Below, piece by piece: positions 2 to 22,609 of a stretch of DNA of 24,582 nucleotides. Within the stretch, counting starts at the first letter, position 1, and each line of letters starts with the position of its first letter. The notes below the pieces were generated by a model. It ran no database searches and was not told the origin of the DNA. It saw only the letters and a list, made by a program, of their open reading frames with translations. The DNA comes from a virus. Position numbers and translations under genes: made by a program. The DNA is taken from positions 1-24,582 of IMG/VR virus record IMGVR_UViG_3300036886_000291. One strand, given 5' to 3'.

Positions 2-553
2 TATTATCGGTATCCAGGTAGATTATATTATGCACCGAATGGCACAATGCTTACATTGGGCTATAAACAGCTTCATAAGCAGATTTATATTGATAATTTT
101 GGACAAATTCCGAAAGGATGTCATATCCATCATAAAGATTTTGACCATGACAACAATAGTCCCTCAAATCTTATTGCTCTCCCCGCACATGAACACGCGT
201 TACTTCATCTTAAACGAAATCACGCAAACCCAGAACAAAAAGCGAAATATTATAAGTGGCACAATTCTGAAGAAGGAAAAAAACAACTCAGAGCAAATGC
301 TTATAAAATGCAAAAAAACTCTCCAAAGCGAAAGCAAATATGCGAATATTGTAGAACAACTTTTACAACACAACATTCACAGCAGAAGTTTTGTGAAAAA
401 CATAAGAAATTTAAGGGGTATAAGAAAACAACTTGTGTTATTGATGGCATTTATTTTTGGCAAAAGAAAAATGGTTTGCGAACTACTCAAACCTGTTCAT
501 ATCGTTGCGGTTGGGAATTACGAAGACGCAATAGTTTACAGACTAACAGTTGA
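2..553 (+). CDS. HNH homing endonuclease, 5' end outside window
   Basis: The frame is open from the first bases, so the true start lies upstream; an internal ATG at 47 would cut into the domain. The HNH core is clear: HHKDFDHDNN followed by SNLIALPAHEHALLH gives the paired His, the Asn and the trailing His-x3-His of the HNH_3 type. Downstream is a zinc knuckle, CEYC...KFCEKH, and a second Cys pair with an Arg tail, CSYRCGWELRRR. Such proteins nick or cut DNA and spread their own gene or an associated intein. The last 25 or so codons overlap, in another frame, the intein/terminase ORF that starts at 471. Both overlapping reading frames carry family-like residues, so the overlap looks real and not a simple indel. 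It could instead be the endonuclease part of a contiguous intein broken by a frameshift. Confidence 0.85.
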   Translation, partial: YYRYPGRLYYAPNGTMLTLGYKQLHKQIYIDNFGQIPKGCHIHHKDFDHDNNSPSNLIALPAHEHALLHLKRNHANPEQKAKYYKWHNSEEGKKQLRANAYKMQKNSPKRKQICEYCRTTFTTQHSQQKFCEKHKKFKGYKKTTCVIDGIYFWQKKNGLRTTQTCSYRCGWELRRRNSLQTNS

Positions 554-758
554 AGAAGCACATCTTTATTATGCAAATGGAATCCTGGTTAGTAATACAC
601 AAGGTGAGGATCATAGTTACGATGCTTTGTCTTATATGCTTAAGGCTATTAGATGGGTTGACGCAAAGTTAGGTGGCGTTGAAAGAAAAGGCATGCTACA
701 ATCAAAAGTGGCTCATGTACAACCGGATCGTCCGATTCCACTGACGCAGTGGAACTGA
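471..758 (+). CDS. Intein C-terminal fragment fused to C-terminal end of terminase large subunit
   Basis: From the ATG at 471 the protein has 95 residues. Residues 1-42 match an intein C-terminal splicing half: a beta strand (PVHIVAV), block F (VYRLTVEEAHLYYANGILV) and a terminal Ser-Asn, followed by Thr as first extein residue (codon 597-599). Residues 43-95 begin TQGEDHSYDALSY, which resembles the conserved acidic Asp-Ala-Leu motif at the end of the TerL nuclease domain that cuts concatemeric DNA during packaging. A 42-residue half is the usual size of a split-intein IntC. The penultimate residue is Ser where His is typical. Upstream in this frame (30-470) I see no intein or terminase signature, only the shadow of the HNH gene. 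No Shine-Dalgarno is evident; an ATG at 444 is an alternative start. The IntN/TerL N-terminal gene would lie left of the window. Confidence 0.72.
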   Translation: MVCELLKPVHIVAVGNYEDAIVYRLTVEEAHLYYANGILVSNTQGEDHSYDALSYMLKAIRWVDAKLGGVERKGMLQSKVAHVQPDRPIPLTQWN

Positions 759-767
759 CATATATAT

Positions 768-947
768 ATGTGGCAACAGATTAAAGATTGGTGTTGGACA
801 GATAAGATAGAAACTGTACCTTTTACGCTTGAAGATACGGCAAAGGGTGTTGCCGATGCAATGGCTCATTATTGCGAAGTTTGTGATCGTGGCTTTACTA
901 CAGCTCATGGGTGTAAAAATCATAAGCGAATAAAGCATGGAGAATAA
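768..947 (+). CDS. C2H2 zinc-finger microprotein
   Basis: A 59-residue protein starting 9 nt after the terminase stop. Residues 36-57 read as a classical C2H2 finger: Cys-x2-Cys, a Phe four residues after the second Cys, then His-x4-His after a 12-residue gap (CEVC...FTTAHGCKNHKRIKH). The N-terminal 35 residues are Trp-rich and acidic. C2H2 fingers usually bind DNA or another protein; in a phage packaging cluster this could be a terminase or DNA accessory factor, but that is a guess. The start ATG follows a TATATAT run and has no Shine-Dalgarno. The next gene overlaps its end by 11 nt. Confidence 0.65.
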   Translation: MWQQIKDWCWTDKIETVPFTLEDTAKGVADAMAHYCEVCDRGFTTAHGCKNHKRIKHGE

Positions 948-1206
948 GAATAACGGGATAATTCCCATATCGGTATGGCTAACGCCCTCTACCCCCACAC
1001 TTCACTTCTGTATGATCTGTCGCTCAACTCTGCATATCAAACAGGAGGGTAAGCCTGATCAGATCATAGCCGGTATTGATGCTTCTAAGATGCAGGGCGG
1101 TATACGACCACTCCTTTTCCCTATTAAGGTGCGTTGCTTCGGCAGATCACAAATCCACGGTAATTGCCCCGCCTTATATATAATACAAGGGATAGTAGAG
1201 GAATAA
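937..1206 (+). CDS. Small zinc-ribbon-like protein, unknown function
   Basis: An 89-residue ORF overlapping the end of the zinc-finger gene. It has Cys25-x2-Cys28 (FCMICRS) and later Cys67 and Cys77 (HGNCPALYII), a layout compatible with a four-Cys zinc ribbon. Short zinc-ribbon proteins of this look occur beside packaging genes in many phages. No function can be assigned. There is no good ribosome-binding site; expression by coupling to the upstream gene is likely. It fills the gap between the zinc finger and the portal promoter. Confidence 0.5.
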   Translation: MENKNNGIIPISVWLTPSTPTLHFCMICRSTLHIKQEGKPDQIIAGIDASKMQGGIRPLLFPIKVRCFGRSQIHGNCPALYIIQGIVEE

Positions 1207-1212
1207 TATTTG

Positions 1213-1221
1213 TGATATGCT
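1213..1221 (+). promoter_or_regulatory. Extended -10 promoter of the portal gene
   Basis: TG-A-TATGCT lies 8 nt before the portal ATG at 1230. No -35 box is evident at the right distance. The spacing puts the transcription start at or next to the ATG, so the portal mRNA would be leaderless. This is one of the weaker examples of the pattern seen at 3607, 3818, 9859, 12126, 12375, 17392 and 20410. Confidence 0.45.
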
Positions 1222-1229
1222 AGTTTTAT

Positions 1230-3587
1230 ATGGACGAGCAAGTTGATTCGTATTTTGCCTCACAGGCGGTAAACCCGATTATCAGTAAGGATGAAGTCGA
1301 TATTTATCGTGATCCGCTTAATTTTGATTTAGACGATCTAACTTTCTTAGATTACGCTAAAAGACTAAAAAGAGAAGCTGATGAGTATTGGAATGACTCG
1401 GGACCTAAAGGCTATACACTCTCCTCAAGACGGGCGAAACTTGAGGCGTATTACTTCGGTCGGCAGGAGGGCGGAACAAAGAAGAAAAGATATTCCTCAA
1501 AAGCGCAGGATAACTTAGTTTGGGAGGCCAGCAGCTATCTTCGGGCAATGGCACTTTCACAACTGCCCGATATTACGGTTAAGCCGGGGCAAGACACGGA
1601 TGATAGCAAGAAAACCGCTGATGATATTAGTAAGATTGTAACCTCAGATATTCAGTCACGGGATAGAAAGCGTGTGTTAGGCCTGTCATTTAAACACCTG
1701 CCTGTTTATTTGACAGGAATTATTAAGCCATTCTGGAACCCACAGAAGGGAAAGTTTGGTGATTATGATTTCAAATCGGTCTTACCTGAGAATATAACCG
1801 CAGATTTCAGAGCAGCTTCAAATGACGTACGGGATATGGATTTTGTCTTTGAGACTTGTGAGAATACGGTTAAGGAGCTGGTGATGATGTTTCCTGAAAA
1901 AGAAAAGGATTTTTATACCGAGTTATACAAATGGGGAACGTTTAAGACAGAGGGAGGCAACGAGAATAATGAAAAGGGTATGAACACCAAGGTTAAGTAT
2001 GAGGAGGTATGGTTCAAGTGGTATGACCACCCTAAGGAGGAGAAGGATAAGAAGAAATGGGAGGAGATCATAGGTGTTGGCTGGTATTTCAACGGTTGCC
2101 TGTTTAGGAAAATCAAGCATCCTTATTGGGATTGGTCAGGTACACCTCAGACTTTCACTTATAAACTGCACGAGATTGATGAGGACACCTACAAGAAAGA
2201 GAAAACACCTGTTGAGTTAGATCAAGTAAAGCAGAGCATTATGACTAATCAGCCGATTGAGGGGGCACAAACTGAAAACATCTTTCATAATCATCTTGAT
2301 TACCCCGAGTTCCCTTATATTTTCTTAGGTATGGAGCAGTGGGGCAAGACACCACTGGACGAGACAAGCTGGATTGAGCAAAACCTAGCCATGCAGCAAA
2401 TTTATGATAAGCGTAATCAGCAGATTGATGAGACGATTGATAGGTCGCGAGGTAAGCACGTTTTCTCCTCAAGTGAGGGAATGACTAAAGACGATGTGTC
2501 AAATATGGACTTGTCAGATCCTAATCAGGATATCTTAGTCGATGGTGATGTGACTAAGGTGCATAACTTTATTCCCGGTGAGCAACCCTCTCCGGCTATG
2601 ATTCAGACTTCTTTGGATATCAGGGAGCGTATTTTTGATAAGGCGGGCATCCATCAGTCAACACGAGGACAGGTTAATAGCGATACGGCGGCTACTAATA
2701 ATCAGATAGCCAGGGAGGGTGATTTTACGCGTATGGATGATTTTGTGGATGACACCATCAACTATGCGTGTGAGAAGATGGCCAACTGGGAAATGCAGTT
2801 TATTAAGTTATTTTATACCGAGTATCACATGCGGCGAATCTTAGGACCGGATGGGAAATGGCTGGCAATTAAGCTACAAAGGGATCTATTAGATGATGGC
2901 ATGGAGGTAGTAATCTCAGCTTCAGGCTCAGATAAACTCAAGGCAGAGCAGCGAGCAATGGATATGGCTAAAATGAAGCTGATTGATCCGTTCAGGTTCT
3001 ACTCGGATGTTCACTCTTCAGATCCAAGAGGCAGGACAGTGGCTCTAATGAATTTTTTAATGAATCCGCAAATGTATTTATTGGATATTCAAAATGGCGG
3101 AGACGGACAGGGTAAGAACGGTTTGCAAGCAGCAGCGGGACAGGTTAACGGTGCGGCTAACCAAATGCAGGCAGGAGCGCAACAAGGCCAACAGCCTCAA
3201 CAAGGAGGGCAACAGGGAGATCCACAGGCTTTACAGGATATTATGATGATTGAACAGGGACAGATCCCGCCTCCTCCAACCCAGGTGAGCCCGGGGTATA
3301 TGCAAACTTTTACACAGTTCATGCACTCGCCTCAACTTGAGCAGCTAATGCAGCAGTTTGGCGGACAGTTTAAGCAGCAACTTCTAACATTCGCGCAGGC
3401 GGTAGCTCAGCTCGGACAAGCCGGAGGGCAACAAGCCGCTCCTGGACAGGCCGGGTTACCCGCTGCTCAACCACAGGGCGCAGCACAGTTTGGTGGAGGA
3501 GGCGGAAATAGTCCTGTCGGTCCGTTATCACAAAACCCCAGTCCCCAGAATACTTCTAAAATATCAGCTATTGCGGGACGTCGTTAG
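1230..3587 (+). CDS. Portal protein
   Basis: A 785-residue protein in the canonical place, between the terminase and the scaffold/capsid genes. Portals form the dodecameric ring at one capsid vertex through which DNA enters and leaves, and dock the terminase and the tail. The N-terminal and middle parts look like large podoviral portals: a helical start, then a segment around residues 185-235 (LPENITADFRAASNDVRD, then a TVKELVMMFPEK helix) typical of the portal wing, and a long helical region at about 380-560. From about residue 620 to the end it is disordered, rich in Gln, Gly and Pro with long Gln runs, and probably carries a flexible internal barrel or tail. Translation probably starts from a leaderless mRNA. 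The call rests on family resemblance, size and gene order. Confidence 0.85.
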   Translation: MDEQVDSYFASQAVNPIISKDEVDIYRDPLNFDLDDLTFLDYAKRLKREADEYWNDSGPKGYTLSSRRAKLEAYYFGRQEGGTKKKRYSSKAQDNLVWEASSYLRAMALSQLPDITVKPGQDTDDSKKTADDISKIVTSDIQSRDRKRVLGLSFKHLPVYLTGIIKPFWNPQKGKFGDYDFKSVLPENITADFRAASNDVRDMDFVFETCENTVKELVMMFPEKEKDFYTELYKWGTFKTEGGNENNEKGMNTKVKYEEVWFKWYDHPKEEKDKKKWEEIIGVGWYFNGCLFRKIKHPYWDWSGTPQTFTYKLHEIDEDTYKKEKTPVELDQVKQSIMTNQPIEGAQTENIFHNHLDYPEFPYIFLGMEQWGKTPLDETSWIEQNLAMQQIYDKRNQQIDETIDRSRGKHVFSSSEGMTKDDVSNMDLSDPNQDILVDGDVTKVHNFIPGEQPSPAMIQTSLDIRERIFDKAGIHQSTRGQVNSDTAATNNQIAREGDFTRMDDFVDDTINYACEKMANWEMQFIKLFYTEYHMRRILGPDGKWLAIKLQRDLLDDGMEVVISASGSDKLKAEQRAMDMAKMKLIDPFRFYSDVHSSDPRGRTVALMNFLMNPQMYLLDIQNGGDGQGKNGLQAAAGQVNGAANQMQAGAQQGQQPQQGGQQGDPQALQDIMMIEQGQIPPPPTQVSPGYMQTFTQFMHSPQLEQLMQQFGGQFKQQLLTFAQAVAQLGQAGGQQAAPGQAGLPAAQPQGAAQFGGGGGNSPVGPLSQNPSPQNTSKISAIAGRR

Positions 3588-3606
3588 ATTTGTTACAACT
3601 ATAGAT
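3571..3606 (+). promoter_or_regulatory. Sigma70-type promoter, leaderless start
   Basis: TTGCGG (3571-3576), a 17-nt spacer and an extended -10 TG-T-TACAAC (hexamer 3594-3599), then 7 nt to the ATG at 3607. The -35 box lies in the last codons of the portal gene. The predicted start site is at the ATG. Confidence 0.6.
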
Positions 3607-3795
3607 ATGCCGGCAAAATCAAAAGCTCAAGAAAGATTTATGGCAGCTATTGCTCACGGAAACCTGAAGAAAAAAGGTTTGTCTAAAGAGACGGCAGAGG
3701 ATTTTGTGGGATCAACCAAGGGATTGCCTGAGCATAAGAAGCCCTTGAAGAGTAAGATTAAGGAAAATATCAAGAAGAAAGTTGACAAAGAGTAA
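3607..3795 (+). CDS. Small basic DUF3008-like phage protein
   Basis: A 62-residue, Lys-rich protein. MPAKSKAQERFM, then a short loop, SKETAEDFV and TKGLPEH are the hallmarks of the short DUF3008-type phage proteins often found beside portal or terminase genes. Their function is unknown. The start at 3607 is chosen because the family pattern begins exactly there and a promoter ends 7 nt upstream; the frame is open further upstream (from 3490) but that part only shadows the portal. The last codons (VDK) hold the TTGACA box of the next promoter. Confidence 0.75.
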   Translation: MPAKSKAQERFMAAIAHGNLKKKGLSKETAEDFVGSTKGLPEHKKPLKSKIKENIKKKVDKE

Positions 3796-3811
3796 TTGTA
3801 TTGTATACACT
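3782..3811 (+). promoter_or_regulatory. Sigma70 promoter for scaffold gene, leaderless
   Basis: A perfect TTGACA (3782-3787), an 18-nt spacer and TACACT (3806-3811), then exactly 6 nt to the ATG at 3818. The -35 box is embedded in the final codons of the preceding gene. Confidence 0.75.
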
Positions 3812-3817
3812 TAATTT

Positions 3818-4717
3818 ATGGCCGATGATAAACAGCTAATTGCTGATGACTCCAAAGACAAAGCCCCTGAGATTAATTATCAACGAGATGTACACAATCC
3901 TGATTTGTCAGATATTGCCGCAGAATGGGAAGATACAGCCACGAAAACAACAGATAGCGCAAAGCCTGCTGAAGAGTTATCCCCAAAGAAAGAAGAAAAA
4001 CCTACAGAACCCGTAAAGCCTGTAGAGGCAGTAAAACTCCCCGAGGAACCCGTTAAACCTGTTATTGATGAGGAAAAGTTGACGGATAACATTACAAACA
4101 AGTTATTGGAGAAGCTAACACCTGAGGATGCAACCAAACAGGAGAAGAAAGATCTTAAGACGAAGCTTAGTGATTTAGAGGCAAAAGCTAAGGAGGAAGG
4201 GCGCGAGTTGACTTACACCGATGCTTTAGAGTTTCTAAGCAAAGAAACTAAAGAGTCGGTTAAGGAAGAGTTGAAAGAGGAAGTTAAGAAAGAAGTCTTA
4301 TCTGATTTGCAAAAGGAAGTGGACACCGAGGATGCCAAGACCAGGGAGCAACAGGCAGCACAGTTGAAACAACAAGAGACATTTACTAAGGAATGGGATC
4401 GCCAACTGGCCAGACTGGAAGAGGGAGGACAATTGCCCAAACCTACCGATATGAAGGATCCTAATGACCCGCGTGTTAAAGAAGAATTGGCGTTATTTAT
4501 TCAGATGCGGGATTATAATCTTAAACATACTGAGGCACCAATTCTTAATGTTGTAGAGTTTTATCATACAGCGTTTAAGTCGCCGACTAGCAAACCGCCA
4601 GGTGCTGATGCGCCTGTAAACGGAGCCAGAAGATCAGTGCAACCGACAGATGATAAGGATTTTACTTATCAATCCATGCACAATTCGAGCCTAGAGGAGC
4701 TGGCGGGAGCAAATTAA
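3818..4717 (+). CDS. Capsid scaffolding protein
   Basis: A 299-residue, highly charged protein directly upstream of the major capsid gene. The first 100 or so residues are disordered and rich in Glu, Lys and Pro (repeated KPVE/EPVKP). Residues about 100-205 are predicted as long helix/coiled coil (Lys/Glu heptads such as SVKEELKEEVKKEVLSDL). The C-terminus is a compact region with YNLKHTEAP and a basic-to-acidic tail. This is the usual make-up of phage scaffolds, which template the HK97-fold shell and are then expelled. No protease signature is visible. The role is inferred from position and composition. Confidence 0.72.
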   Translation: MADDKQLIADDSKDKAPEINYQRDVHNPDLSDIAAEWEDTATKTTDSAKPAEELSPKKEEKPTEPVKPVEAVKLPEEPVKPVIDEEKLTDNITNKLLEKLTPEDATKQEKKDLKTKLSDLEAKAKEEGRELTYTDALEFLSKETKESVKEELKEEVKKEVLSDLQKEVDTEDAKTREQQAAQLKQQETFTKEWDRQLARLEEGGQLPKPTDMKDPNDPRVKEELALFIQMRDYNLKHTEAPILNVVEFYHTAFKSPTSKPPGADAPVNGARRSVQPTDDKDFTYQSMHNSSLEELAGAN

Positions 4718-4726
4718 TTTTGCCTC

Positions 4727-4755
4727 TTGACAGGGGTTTAGTTATCTAATAACAT
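4727..4755 (+). promoter_or_regulatory. Strong promoter for major capsid gene
   Basis: A perfect TTGACA (4727-4732), a 17-nt spacer and TAACAT (4750-4755). The expected start is near 4762, which gives a leader of about 53 nt before the capsid ATG at 4815. This differs from most other promoters here, which leave no leader. Confidence 0.75.
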
Positions 4756-4765
4756 AATTATATTG

Positions 4766-4805
4766 ACAGCATATAGCTGATGAAAACTCTCTTAACTGAG
4801 AGACA
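4766..4805 (+). promoter_or_regulatory. 5' leader element and hairpin of capsid mRNA
   Basis: The leader starts with an 18-nt element (4766-4783, ending CTGATGA) that recurs with 15 of 18 identities at 8416-8433, at the same distance from the other long-leader promoter. It is followed by a CTCTC/GAGAG stem with a TTAACT loop (4789-4804), placed just before the translation start region. An ATG at 4780 opens a short out-of-frame ORF across the capsid start. The element may stabilise the mRNA or tune initiation; the function is inferred. Confidence 0.5.
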
Positions 4806-4814
4806 ATCAACTAT

Positions 4815-5921
4815 ATGGCATACGACGGAATACAATTTGGCAATAGAGTAGATAATCTAACTTACAATAAGATCAACGCTAAGGTTGTTGATACAGTCCT
4901 CAACTCTCGTACTTATGCTTCCCGACTTTTAGGAATGGGTAAACCATTCTCAGGCAAAACAATGGACTGGCCTGTCAAAGTGATTGCCAGTAACCAAGGA
5001 GAGTTTTTCACAGGTTTAGAAACACTTGCCTCTTCAGCATCGAACACCACAGTTGCCCTCTCATTCGCACATACAGGATTCCACCAACCGGCAGTTAGCA
5101 TTATGCTTGAGAGCTTTGCTAATAGTGGTGAGCAACAGGCTATTGATTTGGATGTGTTCAAACTGGAAGAGGCAATTGCCGAGGCAATCCAAACATGGGG
5201 TGTGGCAATTTACGGAACAGGTGTAAACTCTCAGCCTTTAGGTCTTGAAGCAATTGTTGATGATGGAACAAATAACGCCACTATCGGCGGACAATCACGA
5301 ACTACCTATACCGTACTTAAAGCAACGGTTAATGCTTTTGGTAGTGGTATCCTCTCACTTAGTAATCTCTCCACTCTTTATGATACGATTATCGCAGCCG
5401 GCTTGGAATCGGAAGAGCCCAATGTCCATTTGACTACAAAGACTGTTTTCTCTCTCTATGAGCAGCTATTAGCTCCTCAAGTTCGGGCTGATTATCAATA
5501 CGGTGGTTCAGTTGTCTTACCTCTTAGGGGCACTGAAGTAGTCAGACGCTCAGATCTTGGAGGACAAACTGGTTTCACCGTCTTAGCTTATCGTGCACGA
5601 CCTCTGTTAAGAGATGATGCAGCACCTAGTGGAAAGTGGTATATGCTTAATGAAAGATATTTTGGCTGGAGAGGTCGAACGACTATCCCTACTAAGTATA
5701 ATCAGATCTTACAGAAAGTGGATCTTGGCCGAAATAGTACCCTAGACGGTACGGCAGCCAGTCCTGATTATGCACCTCCATCCAGTGTGGGATGGTTCCA
5801 TCAACCCTACTTGCCTATTCCACAGCAAGCAGGACAGATAGCACGTTTCTATGCAATAGGACAAGTTTGCGGATGGCAGTTTAGACGACAAGGGAAAGGA
5901 ACCGGTATAACAACCGTTTAA
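4815..5921 (+). CDS. Major capsid protein (HK97 fold)
   Basis: A 368-residue protein right after the scaffold, with its own strong promoter and a structured leader. The N-arm (VDTVLNSRTYASRLLG) is followed by a strand-rich E-loop-like segment (KTMDWPVKV, QGEFFTGLETL), a long spine-helix-like stretch (DLDVFKLEEAIAEAIQTWG) and an A-domain-like region with VHLTTKTVFSLYEQLL. These features fit the HK97-type shell protein. There is no N-terminal delta domain of the cleaved type, consistent with a separate scaffold gene. Expression is expected to be the highest in the window. Confidence 0.85.
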   Translation: MAYDGIQFGNRVDNLTYNKINAKVVDTVLNSRTYASRLLGMGKPFSGKTMDWPVKVIASNQGEFFTGLETLASSASNTTVALSFAHTGFHQPAVSIMLESFANSGEQQAIDLDVFKLEEAIAEAIQTWGVAIYGTGVNSQPLGLEAIVDDGTNNATIGGQSRTTYTVLKATVNAFGSGILSLSNLSTLYDTIIAAGLESEEPNVHLTTKTVFSLYEQLLAPQVRADYQYGGSVVLPLRGTEVVRRSDLGGQTGFTVLAYRARPLLRDDAAPSGKWYMLNERYFGWRGRTTIPTKYNQILQKVDLGRNSTLDGTAASPDYAPPSSVGWFHQPYLPIPQQAGQIARFYAIGQVCGWQFRRQGKGTGITTV

Positions 5922-5924
5922 CAT

Positions 5925-6668
5925 ATGGCTAGAATAACAGGTCCATCAACATTATCAACAATAGATTTATACGCATCAACTACGACTCAACCGGGTCCAT
6001 TGTATGTAGGTCAAAAAATGGATGCGGCAGGTAAGGCTTTCAGATTTGCCTTAGCAGGGGCGTCAGCCTTAGTAGCGGGCAATTTACTTCAGGAAGCAGC
6101 TGAAAATACAACTTATGAGAATATGGTTATCGGTACTGCCGGAGCAGTAGGAGACACGTATCTTCAGGTTACAAATGGTACTGCCACTATTACCTCTCAA
6201 CAGTTTGAAGGCGGAACAGTCGGTGTCTATACGGCAGGAACAGTAGCGGTTGGCGATGAATATGTAATAACCTCTGTTACGGGAACGCTGACAACGGGTG
6301 GAGCATTGAAAGTCTGGCTTGATCGACCACTGCGCTATGCGGTAACAACCGGCGCAACGGTTAACATGAAACCAAATCCATGGGCGGGTGTTATCCAAGC
6401 ACCGGGAACTACTCAAACAGGTATGGCAGTTGGAGTCGCGATCTATGCAATCCCTGCTAATGCCTACGGATGGATACAGACACATGGAGAGTGCACGGTC
6501 TTATCTGACGGATCAACCTTCGCGGTAGGATCGGATGTCGGTACACCATCAGGAACAGCCGGATGTGTAACAGTTTTTGCAGCAGGTACGACACATCAAA
6601 GAGTAGGAGTTGTACGACAAGCTGCGGCAAGTGGACATGGAATTGCAATGTTCTTGCAAATTGACTAG
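5925..6668 (+). CDS. Capsid decoration / head stabilisation protein
   Basis: A 247-residue beta-rich protein of low charge starting 3 nt after the capsid stop. It is rich in Gly, Ala, Thr and Val and contains alternating strand motifs (VGDTYLQVTNGTATI, VGDEYVITSVTGTL, VNMKPNPWAGVI, RVGVVRQAAASGHGIAMFL). Proteins of this kind after the capsid gene are usually outer-surface cement or decoration proteins. There is no Shine-Dalgarno; the tight spacing suggests translational coupling to the capsid gene. The gene is followed by a rho-independent terminator. The exact family is not recognised. Confidence 0.6.
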   Translation: MARITGPSTLSTIDLYASTTTQPGPLYVGQKMDAAGKAFRFALAGASALVAGNLLQEAAENTTYENMVIGTAGAVGDTYLQVTNGTATITSQQFEGGTVGVYTAGTVAVGDEYVITSVTGTLTTGGALKVWLDRPLRYAVTTGATVNMKPNPWAGVIQAPGTTQTGMAVGVAIYAIPANAYGWIQTHGECTVLSDGSTFAVGSDVGTPSGTAGCVTVFAAGTTHQRVGVVRQAAASGHGIAMFLQID

Positions 6669-11030: not shown

Positions 11031-11336
11031 ATGAATTATACGATTGACAAAATTAATGATGACGGGACAATAAACGTAACTTTTGACATTGATGGAATAA
11101 GTCAATGTTTAGGTGGTATGCCTCTTGATAATTTAGACGCCTTAAACCAAAGTCTTTACGAGTATGGTCAATCTTATGAACAGGGATTAGTTAAAGTTAA
11201 TCTTGCAGTCGCCCCCGAAGTAGAAGCCCTAGTAGGACAGACCTACTCTCTTGAACAGGTGACAGACGCTAAAACAGGCATAGCCTCTATATCCTCAAGT
11301 ATGGTAGCTAAAGGAACGCTACAGAAAGGAAGCTAA
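11031..11336 (+). CDS. Small protein, unknown
   Basis: A 101-residue protein starting 2 nt after the previous stop. N-terminal strands (NYTIDKINDDGTINVTFDID) are followed by a helical middle and a Gly/Ser end. The composition is acidic. No family is recognised. Its stop overlaps the next start as TAATG. The frame is open further upstream (from 10974), but that part shadows the previous gene. Confidence 0.55.
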   Translation: MNYTIDKINDDGTINVTFDIDGISQCLGGMPLDNLDALNQSLYEYGQSYEQGLVKVNLAVAPEVEALVGQTYSLEQVTDAKTGIASISSSMVAKGTLQKGS

Positions 11337-12094
11337 TGCCACGCACAATCGCAGGAACTAGAACTAAAGCTGGTACTCGTACCCTCGCTGGTGCCCGTGG
11401 CCTCACAGGTAATATAGGAGGGGTTGTGACGAATGGGTTGGTAGGGTATTGGAAGATGGATGAGACGAGTTGGAATAATGTGAGTGGGGAGGTAAAGGAT
11501 AGTAGTGGTAATGGAAATAACGGAACAGGAAGCGGGTACAGCACAACCAGCCTACCAGCTGGCAAATACGGCAACGCCGGAACGTTTAATGGAAGCAATC
11601 AGTATGTAAGTATACCAGATAATAGCAATTTAGGTTCTTCGTATATGACTGTTTCTGCATGGATATACACAAGCACCTTCAATACAAATGGGTCAATTTA
11701 CAATAGGCGTACGGCTGATAATACGGGTGGAGTGACGATGCAACCATACAATACTTCTGGAAATATAATCTGTTATTTCTATATTGGTGGAATTTGGGTA
11801 TCTGTCGCCACTTCTATTGCACTTCCAGTAAGTCAGTGGGGCTTAATAACATATACTTATGATGGAAGCACTATCAAAGCATATGTTAATGGTATTCCGG
11901 CTGGGTCTACATCTGTGTCTGGAACAATTAATAATCCGACGTCTCCACTTGTTCAGATAGGAAAGAATGTTACTAGTGCAACAACATTCAACGGTCTCAT
12001 CGACGAGGTCCGTATCTACAACCGCGCACTCTCAGCCAGTGAAGTGCAGCAATTGTATTTAAGTAGCGGAGTGGGGAGGACGGGGGTAGTTTGA
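11336..12094 (+). CDS. LamG/concanavalin-like lectin-fold protein with N-terminal hexapeptide repeats
   Basis: A 252-residue protein. Residues 2-25 are a tandem hexapeptide repeat (RTIAGT, RTKAGT, RTLAGA, RGLTGN). Residues about 35-245 are a Laminin-G/concanavalin-like jelly roll: LVGYWKMDE, DSSGNGNNGT, AGTFNGSNQYVSIP, MTVSAWIY, TYTYDGSTIKAYVNG and FNGLIDEVRIYNRALSASEV are all signature segments. Such domains bind sugars, so the protein may hold the particle to a cell surface or glycan. AAGGAAG upstream and a TAATG overlap give it a normal ribosome-binding site and coupling. The first third of the LamG coding region is unusually G-rich on the plus strand compared with its neighbours, which hints at a recently acquired domain. 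Confidence 0.8.
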   Translation: MPRTIAGTRTKAGTRTLAGARGLTGNIGGVVTNGLVGYWKMDETSWNNVSGEVKDSSGNGNNGTGSGYSTTSLPAGKYGNAGTFNGSNQYVSIPDNSNLGSSYMTVSAWIYTSTFNTNGSIYNRRTADNTGGVTMQPYNTSGNIICYFYIGGIWVSVATSIALPVSQWGLITYTYDGSTIKAYVNGIPAGSTSVSGTINNPTSPLVQIGKNVTSATTFNGLIDEVRIYNRALSASEVQQLYLSSGVGRTGVV

Positions 12095-17391: not shown

Positions 17392-19683
17392 ATGGCAACA
17401 GGTAAACAAATGCCCATGATTCCACAAAGTAGCGGTAACGGCTTGTTAGATTGGATAGTAAAACCCGCGGAACAGATAGTTAAGCAGGCTTTACAACGAG
17501 GTTCACAATCAGGACAGGCACTTAATCCCAATAATACGGGAAACATGATTACGAAGGGAGTAAACGCAGTAGGACAGGCAGTTGGTAATACTCCCATTAC
17601 ATCAATTCCAGGCTCACCTACATATGGTCAGGCACTTGATTATATAAACGCGCCTGATCCTTCAACGGGAATTTCAATTGGACTTCCGGGACAAACATTT
17701 CTGAGTGGTGGTATGAAGAATGTCAATGATGTTGCTATGGGAGGATTGATGTTAGGGACAATGGCTGAGGGTGGAGTGGAGAAGCCCGATGAGGAACCAA
17801 TTACTCCGAAGTCAGAATTACCCAGCATTACAAAAACAGGAACTAAGATAACCCGCGATATGAGATTTAAACAAGGAACTGAGAACCCGGGAGCTTATAA
17901 GCAAACACTTCCACCAATGCCAAAAGCCAAACCACAATTCGCGGGAGAAGCGACAGCTCCATTAAATCCAAACGCTGAACAGTTGCCGCCGCAACAAGAA
18001 ATAAAACCACCTGTTAGTCAAACCCCGCCAGTTAATACAAGAGAGAGAACATATGCTTCAGGAAATGAAACTTCAGCAGATATCGCTGAGAATACTAAAA
18101 GAAATCTGCAATATACCGATGGTATACCCTCTCCAAAGACAAAAGCACAGGTAAACGCGACCCTGAATGGTTATGAAATTACAGGAAGTCTTGATAATCA
18201 ATTACAAGGGATTGAGGATCAAAAAGGGATTTTAAGTAAAGCCGCACAGGCGCAAGTCGCAGAAGATGGAGGGACAACAGCAAAGGCAGACTTACTTAAT
18301 AGAATGGTAAAAGACGTTACATATAATGGAAGTAAACATAATATCCCGTCAACTGAAGCAGCAAACGAAAGCTCCAAATATCTTAATGATGTTTATGTTC
18401 GGGCAACTGGTGGAGATTTAACAAAAATCAATGGTGATATTATGCCCCCAACAATTCCGGATACCATAGTTCAGAAAATGAAGACAATCATGGGGCAAGA
18501 CGCTTCTTTAACTTTTGGGAAAGATCCTACTACCTGGTCTACTTCTCAACAAATCGCCCGTTATGCGAGAAACTCATTTGACTCTCTTTTAGACCAAAGC
18601 CATCCTGAAGCCTCAACTCTTAATAACGATATGTCTGATTTGTATAAAGCGCAGGATTCTATCATGAAAGGAGCAAATAAGGAGAGTACGGCAGCACAAT
18701 CGGCTATACTAACGCCATCAAAGTCCCTTTTTGGTAAAGGTTATTCCGTAGCAAAAGATTTAGCAATAGGATATGGTAGTGCGAGGTTTTTAGGCATTGA
18801 CCCTGCAAAGTTAGTAAGTGGTAGTATTGCGGGGGCGCAACAATTGTTCAATGGTGGTGCGAATAACGTGCCCTATAAACCAGAAGATTATCAGGTAAAG
18901 ACCGACAGTAAGTATTATGCTAATCAATCCCATATATTAAGTAGTAGTATACCACGAACACAACAAGATGTCAAACCCGATCAAAATGGTAACTACCCTG
19001 TCGCTAATCCACAGAATATTTTTGACAACAATAATACGCCTCTTGGTATGAGTCTGAGTGATTATACGAAGCAAAATAACGATTTTGGCTTAAAAGTGAA
19101 ACAGGATATTATATTAGGACTGCAAGGAACGCCCCAATATGCTACCGATGCCCAAGCGTTAGATACCTTGCAAACTAGATGGAAAGAACAACCGGATATA
19201 CAAACAAATTATAATAAAGCCTCAGCTATAAGTTCATTAACCGCAAAAATTAAATCAGAAGTTGCGGGATTATCTGATAATTTATTAACTACCACAACTT
19301 TTGATAATTTAAGTTCAATAAACAACGGCACATATAGAGGATTAAAACAAGATATTCAAGATTTAGCATCTGCGTTTGGTACAGACCCTGAGAACATATG
19401 GCAGCAACAAAATAGCAAAGCATTAAAGGCGTCTCTCGATTCGATTGGACAACAAAATGCCTCTTTATGGAATCAGTATGTAAATTACAAAACCAGTAAT
19501 ACGGGGGCTTCTAATCTTAGTAATACTTCTTTGCAAACGCCTCCTTTAACACCGACTTCACCTCTTCCCAAAATGTCTCATCTTGATACAAGAATGGGGT
19601 CTGCAATAAGCGGTAGTAGTCCGCAGCAGGCGATGCAACAAGCACAGGGTATTGTTAATATGCAGATGCCGTCTATTCACTAA
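17392..19683 (+). CDS. Large internal virion (ejection-type) protein
   Basis: A 763-residue protein with its own leaderless promoter. Residues 1-210 are low-complexity and Pro/Gly/Gln-rich. Residues about 220-450 form a helical domain (NLQYTDGIP...YEITGSLDNQLQGIED, WSTSQQIARYARNSFDSLLD). A weakly hydrophobic stretch at about 460-490 (DLAIGYGSARFLGIDPAKLV) could touch a membrane. The rest is helical and ends in a Ser/Pro/Gln tail. Size, composition and place (after the hydrolase, before the fibres) match the large ejection proteins of podoviruses. It is too disordered at its ends and lacks the long uniform heptads of a tape measure. The next gene, with a RelA/SpoT domain, starts 1 nt after its stop. 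Confidence 0.5.
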   Translation: MATGKQMPMIPQSSGNGLLDWIVKPAEQIVKQALQRGSQSGQALNPNNTGNMITKGVNAVGQAVGNTPITSIPGSPTYGQALDYINAPDPSTGISIGLPGQTFLSGGMKNVNDVAMGGLMLGTMAEGGVEKPDEEPITPKSELPSITKTGTKITRDMRFKQGTENPGAYKQTLPPMPKAKPQFAGEATAPLNPNAEQLPPQQEIKPPVSQTPPVNTRERTYASGNETSADIAENTKRNLQYTDGIPSPKTKAQVNATLNGYEITGSLDNQLQGIEDQKGILSKAAQAQVAEDGGTTAKADLLNRMVKDVTYNGSKHNIPSTEAANESSKYLNDVYVRATGGDLTKINGDIMPPTIPDTIVQKMKTIMGQDASLTFGKDPTTWSTSQQIARYARNSFDSLLDQSHPEASTLNNDMSDLYKAQDSIMKGANKESTAAQSAILTPSKSLFGKGYSVAKDLAIGYGSARFLGIDPAKLVSGSIAGAQQLFNGGANNVPYKPEDYQVKTDSKYYANQSHILSSSIPRTQQDVKPDQNGNYPVANPQNIFDNNNTPLGMSLSDYTKQNNDFGLKVKQDIILGLQGTPQYATDAQALDTLQTRWKEQPDIQTNYNKASAISSLTAKIKSEVAGLSDNLLTTTTFDNLSSINNGTYRGLKQDIQDLASAFGTDPENIWQQQNSKALKASLDSIGQQNASLWNQYVNYKTSNTGASNLSNTSLQTPPLTPTSPLPKMSHLDTRMGSAISGSSPQQAMQQAQGIVNMQMPSIH

Positions 19684-19684
19684 T

Positions 19685-20395
19685 ATGTCAGCTACAAAAG
19701 GAGAATTACAGATCAATGATAGCGATATCCGTAAACATGCTCCTGATCTAATTAATGAAGGGACTCGCCAGAATCTAGCAACTTCGCTGCAAACTGTCCA
19801 TCAGATTAAGCCTAAGATTGATACCGTAATGCAACAAATTGCCAATCAGACAGGAACAACAATGAGTAGTCGGGTCAAAGATCCTAAGCAAATTGTTCGT
19901 AAAGTTGTCCAGAAGCGTATGGAAGACAGAAGTTATCAGTTGTCAAATATCAATGATTTACTAGGTTACAGGTTCACCACCGATCATGATAATGAAATAC
20001 CTAGAGTCAAACAGGAAGTTGAAAAAGCAGCTAAAAGCGGTGCGTTCGTGATTATTGCTCAACAGGAAAGAGATAAACAGGATTACAGAGCTTTTCATTA
20101 CGATGTCGGTTTTCCCATTCCTAATGGTAAGACAATAAGAGGTGAGGTTCAAATAATGAATGCCAATAGCGAGGCTCAGGCTGCCGTTTCCCATGACGCC
20201 CATTTTATTTATGGTGAGAAACCGCCAAAAGAGGTTCAGAAGAAACTGGATAAACAAAACGATATAGTACAGCAATTACCGCCAATTAAAGCTAAACAGG
20301 TGGCAAAAACACTGATTAACGCGCACAAGCAGATAAATGACAACCCGTTACCAAAAGGAGTAACAGATCAGGTACTTGCAAACGCAACGAAATAG
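19685..20395 (+). CDS. RelA/SpoT-fold nucleotidyltransferase-like protein
   Basis: A 236-residue protein. Residues about 60-180 follow the (p)ppGpp synthetase fold in order: Arg63/Lys65/Lys68 in SSRVKDPKQIVRKV (basic ATP-binding strip), Asp91-Gly94-Arg96 in INDLLGYRF (metal-binding Asp), Tyr134 and His138 in YRAFHYDV (base-stacking Tyr of the Gly-Tyr-x-Ser-x-His motif), Glu154-Gln156 in GEVQIMN, and His170/His173 in the AVSHDAHFIYG helix. The usual Gly and Ser of the YxSxH motif are Asp and Ala. No hydrolase, TGS or ACT domain is present, so it resembles a small alarmone synthetase or a toxSAS-type toxin. It starts 1 nt after a large virion protein, so it may be virion cargo. The start at 19685 is preferred; the frame is open from 19652. 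Confidence 0.78.
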   Translation: MSATKGELQINDSDIRKHAPDLINEGTRQNLATSLQTVHQIKPKIDTVMQQIANQTGTTMSSRVKDPKQIVRKVVQKRMEDRSYQLSNINDLLGYRFTTDHDNEIPRVKQEVEKAAKSGAFVIIAQQERDKQDYRAFHYDVGFPIPNGKTIRGEVQIMNANSEAQAAVSHDAHFIYGEKPPKEVQKKLDKQNDIVQQLPPIKAKQVAKTLINAHKQINDNPLPKGVTDQVLANATK

Positions 20396-21769: not shown

Positions 21770-22609
21770 ATGACAGCTTCAGTACAAGTATTAGTAATAG
21801 CCGGTGGTGGTGGTGGAGGCGCATCAGACCGTGCAGGTGGCGGCGGCGGTGGCGGTGGTTATCAATACGACGCAACTCATTCAATTACCATTAACAATCC
21901 CTATACAGTAACTATTGGTGGTGGAGGCAATGGTGCTAGTGGTCGTAATGTAATAGGTAATAATGGTAGTAACTCTGTTTTTGATACGATTACTGCTGTA
22001 GGTGGCGGCGGTGGCGGCGGTGGCGGCGAGTCTTTTGGAGCAAACGGAGGTAGTGGTGGCGGTGGAGCATCTAATGGCAATGAGGGAGGAGGCACTGGTT
22101 CCCAAGGACACAATGGAGGTATTGGTCTTGATGGAGGTGGAGGCGGTCCATGGAATGGCGCAGGAGGTGGAGGTGCTGGAGGAAATGGAGCAAATGCCGT
22201 AAATGGCAATGGCGGGAATGGTGGCGTAGGAACAAGTAATTCTATCTCAGGATCAGCGGTATTCTACGGTGGCGGCGGTGGCGGTGGTTCTGATAATCAA
22301 ACAGGGGGCTCAGGTCAAAACGGGGGAGGAAATGGTAGCACTGGTGTCGCAAATGGCGGAAATGCTACCGGACAAACAGGAGCAGGCGGAGGCGGAAATT
22401 CCGGTAATAGCAGTAGTAATGGTAATGGAGGTAACGGTGCGCCTGGAATAGTAATTATTTCAACTACAGTTGGTACTCTTTCACCAAGTCTAACAACAGG
22501 TGGATCTCATACTCAATCAGGTGGAAATGATATTTGGACATTTACAACGGGCGGTACATGGACACCGGCACTAATACCAAGTAATGGAAATTTCTTTCTA
22601 TTTTTCTAA
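21770..22609 (+). CDS. Polyglycine-rich receptor-binding-type protein
   Basis: A 279-residue protein of which residues about 10-230 are dominated by Gly runs (up to 9) mixed with Asn, Ser and Ala. The order of motifs (VLVIAGGGGGG, PYTVTIGGGGNG, VGGGGGGGGG, FYGGGGGGG, GAPGIVII) is that of the phage glycine-rich domain family, thought to form polyglycine-II helix bundles as in T-even gp38 adhesins. The C-terminal 50 residues (TTGGSHTQSGGNDIWTFTTGG) form a short strand end. It starts 4 nt after the fibre stop. It is probably an adhesin at the fibre tip; host-range variation is expected in the loops between Gly runs. Confidence 0.75.
   Translation: MTASVQVLVIAGGGGGGASDRAGGGGGGGGYQYDATHSITINNPYTVTIGGGGNGASGRNVIGNNGSNSVFDTITAVGGGGGGGGGESFGANGGSGGGGASNGNEGGGTGSQGHNGGIGLDGGGGGPWNGAGGGGAGGNGANAVNGNGGNGGVGTSNSISGSAVFYGGGGGGGSDNQTGGSGQNGGGNGSTGVANGGNATGQTGAGGGGNSGNSSSNGNGGNGAPGIVIISTTVGTLSPSLTTGGSHTQSGGNDIWTFTTGGTWTPALIPSNGNFFLFF
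21800..22450 (+). repeat. GGN low-complexity tract
   Basis: Long runs of GGT/GGC/GGA codons inside the polyglycine gene. The tract can change length by slippage or recombination. The minus strand reads as spurious proline-rich frames. Confidence 0.7.

Follow-up and report, generated by a model that had tools for sequence, protein, structure and literature searches.

An HNH endonuclease gene nested out of frame in a probable cis-splicing intein of a phage terminase

How are a terminase, an intein and a homing endonuclease combined at the start of the IMG/VR virus record IMGVR_UViG_3300036886_000291, where two reading frames appear to encode protein on the same bases? The stretch analysed here (the window) is the entire virus record of 24,582 bases, and it starts inside the feature in question, the 3' part of the gene for the terminase large subunit, TerL. 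A preliminary description of this DNA had proposed a split-intein terminase that depends on trans-splicing for its activity. This proposal was not supported: nothing interrupts the host frame before the contig edge, and the complete relatives in the same clade have both the N-terminal (IntN) and the C-terminal (IntC) half of the intein in a single open reading frame (ORF). We consider it very probable that this is the 3' part of a TerL intein that is continuous and splices in cis, is inserted at the last nuclease motif and has an HNH gene nested in it out of frame.

The HNH homing-endonuclease ORF occupies positions 2..553 of the plus strand in frame 2, the contig edge having removed its 5' end (about 20 residues). 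The TerL/intein host reading frame (3..758, plus strand) is frame 3, which corresponds to the HNH frame +1, and it contains no stop from base 3 until the TerL stop codon at 756-758, spanning the entire HNH ORF. Frame 1 has 22 stops within 1-553. For the window alone, synonymous shuffling within the HNH gene gives P = 0.039 for the open +1 frame. Both the HNH and the intein frames match their family profiles, and the nested, out-of-frame endonuclease of the preliminary description was borne out.

The C-terminal half of the intein lies at 492..596 (plus strand), starting with the strand PVHIVAVG, followed by VYRLTVEEAHLYYANGILVSN and ending in the terminal Asn at 594-596. Read in frame 3 from the ATG at 471, the translation is MVCELLKPVHIVAVGNYEDAIVYRLTVEEAHLYYANGILVSN up to the splice junction and TQGEDHSYDALSY after it, the last intein residue being N at 594-596 and the first extein residue T+1 at 597. 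The C-terminal block, HLYYANGILVSN followed by T, thus ends in an Asn and is followed by one of the C/S/T residues. The assignment is based on alignments, on the Hint fold of a relative (see below) and on the NCBIfam profile intein_Cterm TIGR01443, which the window matches with 27.1 bits, above the cut-off of 15.6. The intein C-half recognised earlier was therefore upheld, unlike the view that ATG 471 is its own start codon. This ATG is one among several start codons of frame 3 and has no Shine-Dalgarno sequence upstream, and since frame 3 is open through the whole HNH ORF it need not be a start. The TerL C-extein extends from Thr+1 to the stop (597..758, plus strand) and holds the nuclease motif region EDHSYDALSY.

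The HNH ORF overlaps the stretch from ATG 471 by 83 nt. Within this overlap, the segment 489..553 (plus strand) has conserved family residues in both proteins, namely the C-terminal zinc ribbon of the HNH in frame 2 and the start of IntC in frame 3. As the preliminary description had noted, the same bases are read as TCSYRCGW in the HNH (491-514) and as PVHIVAVG in IntC (492-515). The HNH stop codon (TGA, 551-553) falls within the VEE codons of IntC.

Both its motif residues and its family profiles place the window HNH in the HNH_3 family, with E-values of 7.3e-10 for Pfam HNH_3 and 6.6e-21 for PHROG 15471. The motif residues are H43/H44 (128-133), N52 (155-157), N56 (167-169), H65 (194-196) and H69 (206-208), and in an alignment with 50 relatives the active-site residues are invariant. 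The zinc-ribbon cysteines are C114, C117, C131, C145, C165 and C169; residue 148 is D, where a ribbon cysteine is expected, so that one position has changed. An AlphaFold2 model of the window HNH frame has a mean predicted local distance difference test score (pLDDT) of 93.6, and its best fold match in the PDB is a weak one, to the homing endonuclease I-HmuI (E 0.21).

The missing 5' part can be approached through relatives. A search with the IntC-TerL end retrieved L001, whose IntC plus extein is 53% identical to that of the window, and L002-L005, all with TerL, IntN and IntC in a single ORF of 785 or 797 residues and an HNH gene of 196 or 202 residues nested in it out of frame. In L001 the TerL/intein ORF is at 664-3021 and the nested HNH at 2208-2798, and in L002 they are at 3919-6312 and 5454-6062. 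IntN and IntC are found in one ORF, in the same frame as in the window, in L001, L002, L007, L008, L170 and L171. From these relatives we infer that the window's missing 5' end is like theirs. The TerL N-part was also sought elsewhere in the window, including with PF03354, and was not found.

In the HNH tree the window belongs to a clade of 24 rows with full support, every one of them nested and continuous. The same layout is present in a faecal phage contig and in the annotated Rhodobacteraceae phage LS06-2018-MD07, Tetrasphaera phage TJE1 and Acinetobacter phage Highwayman; in the last two the nested HNH is absent from the annotation. A scan of viral contigs with the single HNH sequence gave no relatives, which were found with alignment queries. 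An HNH-seeded scan of viral contigs, which is free of phase bias, gave 62 loci nested at +1, one nested at +2, one fractured and 17 in which no intein halves were found. Alignment searches of viral contigs and genomes gave about 160 cases nested at +1 besides the window, a number that includes overlapping stretches taken from the same contig and corresponds to 120-121 distinct loci at 80% identity. No case of an HNH in the intein frame occurs in the locus set, and the window's intein has no in-frame endonuclease either. Some assignments were revised: L017, taken as fractured, and several loci taken to have an open frame with the N-half only were re-read as nested, with one end matching the profile weakly, and L006, from the first scan, is an unrelated DNA polymerase III-like gene with inteins. 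We also observed that L011 has a single TerL ORF (574-3808) with two inteins at neighbouring sites and a nested HNH in each, in phases +1 and +2.

Absence of stops in the host frame is a property of the whole family. With synonymous codons shuffled within each HNH gene to obtain the expectation, the 120 distinct nested loci (below 80% identity) have 0 host-frame stops against 251 expected, although openness is partly what defines the nested class, and the argument thus rests on the gap between classes and not on the zero alone. The third frame of the same loci has 2037 stops (2122 expected), the corresponding frame of 26 free-standing homologues has 179 (183 expected), and the group classed as split has 47 (44 expected). 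At a guanine-plus-cytosine content below 0.5, free homologues have on average about 8 stops each and nested ones 0, and the contrast persists when this content is matched. Judged by these counts, chance is excluded family-wide as the source of the open host frame.

The two frames are not equally constrained. Substitutions at HNH codon positions 1/2/3 amount to 0.336/0.285/0.531 over 54 nested-locus pairs (10,269 codons), some of which come from overlapping records, HNH position 3 being host position 2. This concentration of changes at position 3 indicates that the HNH frame is under selection; conservation is seen in the HNH protein but not in the host linker. Over IntC, where the final 12 codons of the HNH lie, the values are 0.44/0.31/0.41, and the loss of the position-3 excess is expected where both proteins matter. 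The linker between the off-contig IntN and IntC (3..491, plus strand) would accordingly be a dual-coding segment, as suggested by the stop counts, the codon-position rates and the pLDDT of L001: it is stop-free, not conserved in protein sequence and predicted to be disordered.

In the relatives the splicing motifs are intact. Cys1 and the block B H63 are invariant in 21 of their inteins, the N-half of the window being off the contig, and the intein ends are canonical in nearly all of the 117 loci with an end found. With Cys1 seen in relatives, the intein appears to be class-1-like. In the AlphaFold2 model of the L001 host-frame intein, residues 1-90 and 261-297 form a confident Hint domain, whereas pLDDT is below 50 at residues 93-211 and 226-260. 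This fold matches gp41-1 (E 3.6e-5) and the Mtu RecA intein, the latter match covering both halves. Most of the host N-exteins match terminase families.

These observations are compatible with a mechanism in which translation of a single mRNA in the TerL frame gives TerL-N, the Hint N-half, a featureless stop-free linker, the Hint C-half and TerL-C, and this product would self-splice to yield intact TerL. The HNH protein would come from internal initiation close to the end of IntN; it would cut terL genes that have no intein, and repair would copy the intein in. For every member, HNH translation, splicing, cleavage and homing are what we infer from sequence. The nested HNH starts with ATG in 108 of 116 loci, at a median of 20 nt beyond the end of the IntN profile, and its 3' end is a median of about 58 nt before the intein end. 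An initial count of Shine-Dalgarno sequences (38% vs 2%) was inflated by GGTGAT at spacing 11, which stems from conserved intein codons, so the count was repeated with core motifs alone. Strong Shine-Dalgarno sequences are then found at 19% of nested starts, 2.6% of control ATGs and 52% of free-standing homologues. Internal initiation is thus likely at some of the nested HNH genes and unproven at most.

Several points weigh against our interpretation. The contig does not reach the IntN and the HNH start of the window itself, which makes a split further upstream conceivable. The D at residue 148, in place of a ribbon cysteine, may indicate that the window HNH is weakened, and most nested HNH genes have no strong Shine-Dalgarno sequence. 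In addition, the definition of the nested class introduces a circularity in the stop counts, which the contrast with free and split homologues lessens but does not completely remove.

The alternatives must explain the same data. If this were a fractured gene, with TerL-N plus IntN and IntC plus TerL-C encoded separately, a free HNH gene between them and the two products joined by trans-splicing, it would have counterparts in the family, as true cases exist in phages CL2, BL3 and Vibrio 1.238.A/1.245.O, and in L073, L201 and L195, several of which have an IntC ORF beginning within the 3' end of the HNH, like ATG 471. However, apart from L204, whose break is fresh, fractured relatives have 4-13 stops in the +1 frame, whereas the window host frame is open over all of the HNH that is present; ATG 471 lacks a Shine-Dalgarno sequence and the window's clade is entirely continuous. 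We therefore regard a split intein in the window as unlikely. A decayed HNH remnant, with only the host frame mattering, would agree with the ribbon cysteine lost in the window and with the truncated HNH of Brochothrix phage BL3, yet it is hard to reconcile with changes falling mostly at HNH position 3, with an active site invariant in 50 relatives and with the high pLDDT of the model, and we find it very unlikely.

Phage group I introns often carry HNH genes, and the nearest solved fold is that of I-HmuI, so that the HNH could be the ORF of a self-splicing terL intron with an incidentally open host frame. No group I or II intron was matched in Rfam at gathering score in the window and seven relatives, the Hint halves flanking the HNH in the host frame look splice-competent, and an intron does not need the stop-free state that the family counts reveal; an intron is in our opinion extremely improbable. 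Two frames can also be joined at an edge by an indel, and an ordinary intein with its HNH in frame could in principle take on such an arrangement through an indel or an assembly error. Nevertheless, both frames are open for about 549 nt, beyond the reach of any single indel, phase and layout are the same in about 120 distinct loci, which come from many different assemblies and isolates, and the locus set has no in-frame HNH intein from which to derive it. The probability of such an error is close to nil, in agreement with the preliminary description, which had found one indel hard to accept.

The continuous, nested arrangement is one of several in which this HNH family occurs. A free-standing HNH of the same family is located between terL and the portal gene in phages PAE1, SN1 and FBPa53. 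In others the HNH lies between the halves of an apparently fractured terL: Lactobacillus phage CL2 (L179, 454-2771), where the C-part is unannotated; Brochothrix phage BL3 (L175, 708-2607), where the HNH is a remnant and the C-part is called gp3; Vibrio phages 1.238.A/1.245.O (L173/L174, 142-3874); and L073, L201 and L195. The fractured-gene arrangement proposed earlier is thus real in more distant relatives and seems not to apply to the window's clade of 24, so the preliminary description had named a neighbouring arrangement. The same Vibrio TerL (L173, 142-3022) has another intein, its first, close to the Walker A motif; the LAGLIDADG endonuclease of that intein is in frame. In L204 (3281-4661) there is a single host-frame stop with ATG codons directly after it, and one stop also in the HNH frame; it resembles a copy that has recently split or is decaying.

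In the HNH tree, made by a quick method, the starred branches force at least 6 changes for the nested state, at least 7 for the free and at least 3 for the split. The second intein of L011, the one with its HNH at +2, suggests by its other phase that the nested state probably has more than one origin. Where two loci have similar HNH, their IntN parts resemble each other more than their TerL parts do (0.56 vs 0.41), which fits mobility, the pairs having been picked on HNH similarity. Because frame, start and stop of the HNH are its own, a stop can freely arise in the host-frame linker, and the 3' end of the HNH already offers possible IntC starts, such that a cis intein may become a fractured gene by one mutation. 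We propose only tentatively that inteins overprinted in this way form a class widespread among phage terminases and give rise to split inteins, the nested state having arisen at least two times.

Descriptions of homing inteins place the endonuclease in a domain that shares their reading frame, and no account of an intein with its endonuclease in another frame was found in the literature searched, which left out most subscription papers. Genes fractured by split inteins, with an endonuclease located between the two halves, were reportedly described by Dassa et al. in 2009. The order IntN, separate endonuclease gene, IntC is common to those and to distant members of this HNH family, whereas the window and its clade have a continuous intein frame that the HNH overlies, instead of separating two genes. 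The window HNH shares its HNH motif and zinc ribbons with the HNH_3/PHROG 15471/I-HmuI type, but its gene is inside an intein and overlaps the intein coding frame. The closest known system is the ShiLan domain, a hidden out-of-frame HNH in phage DNA methylases, with no detectable splicing domain; it is thought to remain in the protein, and homing was proposed (PMC11855218). Applejack gp54/gp55 is another out-of-frame HNH without a splicing domain (PMC12613952). As in ShiLan, the HNH of the window is in another frame of a continuous, stop-free host ORF; in contrast, it is inside a canonical intein, shares bases with IntC, and belongs to a set found in terminases of diverse phages. Mycobacteriophage TerL inteins are homing inteins, all in the ATPase domain, with splicing and cutting shown for some, and the two with shown cutting have in-frame LAGLIDADG endonucleases (PMC5050341). 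The present family differs from these in having an out-of-frame HNH and in its position at the last nuclease motif.

Downstream of the TerL end, the window encodes a portal (1230-3587, PHROG 156) and a major head protein (4815-5921, PHROG 9953). Further along are a protein with a Concanavalin A-like lectin domain (11336-12094; PF13385, 1.7e-32), perhaps a virion surface protein, a RelA/SpoT-type domain downstream of the phage structural genes (19652-20395; PF04607, 3.4e-10), and a highly glycine-rich protein with GGGG runs (21770-22609), which contains a 30-nt tandem repeat at 22133-22192.

For the family, these results point to a large and diverse set of phage terminase inteins in which the endonuclease would be a separate gene, overprinted on the intein linker, with true two-protein coding where the HNH meets IntC. 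Annotation usually retains one of the two overlapping genes. The set makes available many new inteins within an essential gene for packaging and, as nested, fractured and free-standing forms occur in one HNH family, the origin of naturally split inteins becomes directly testable.
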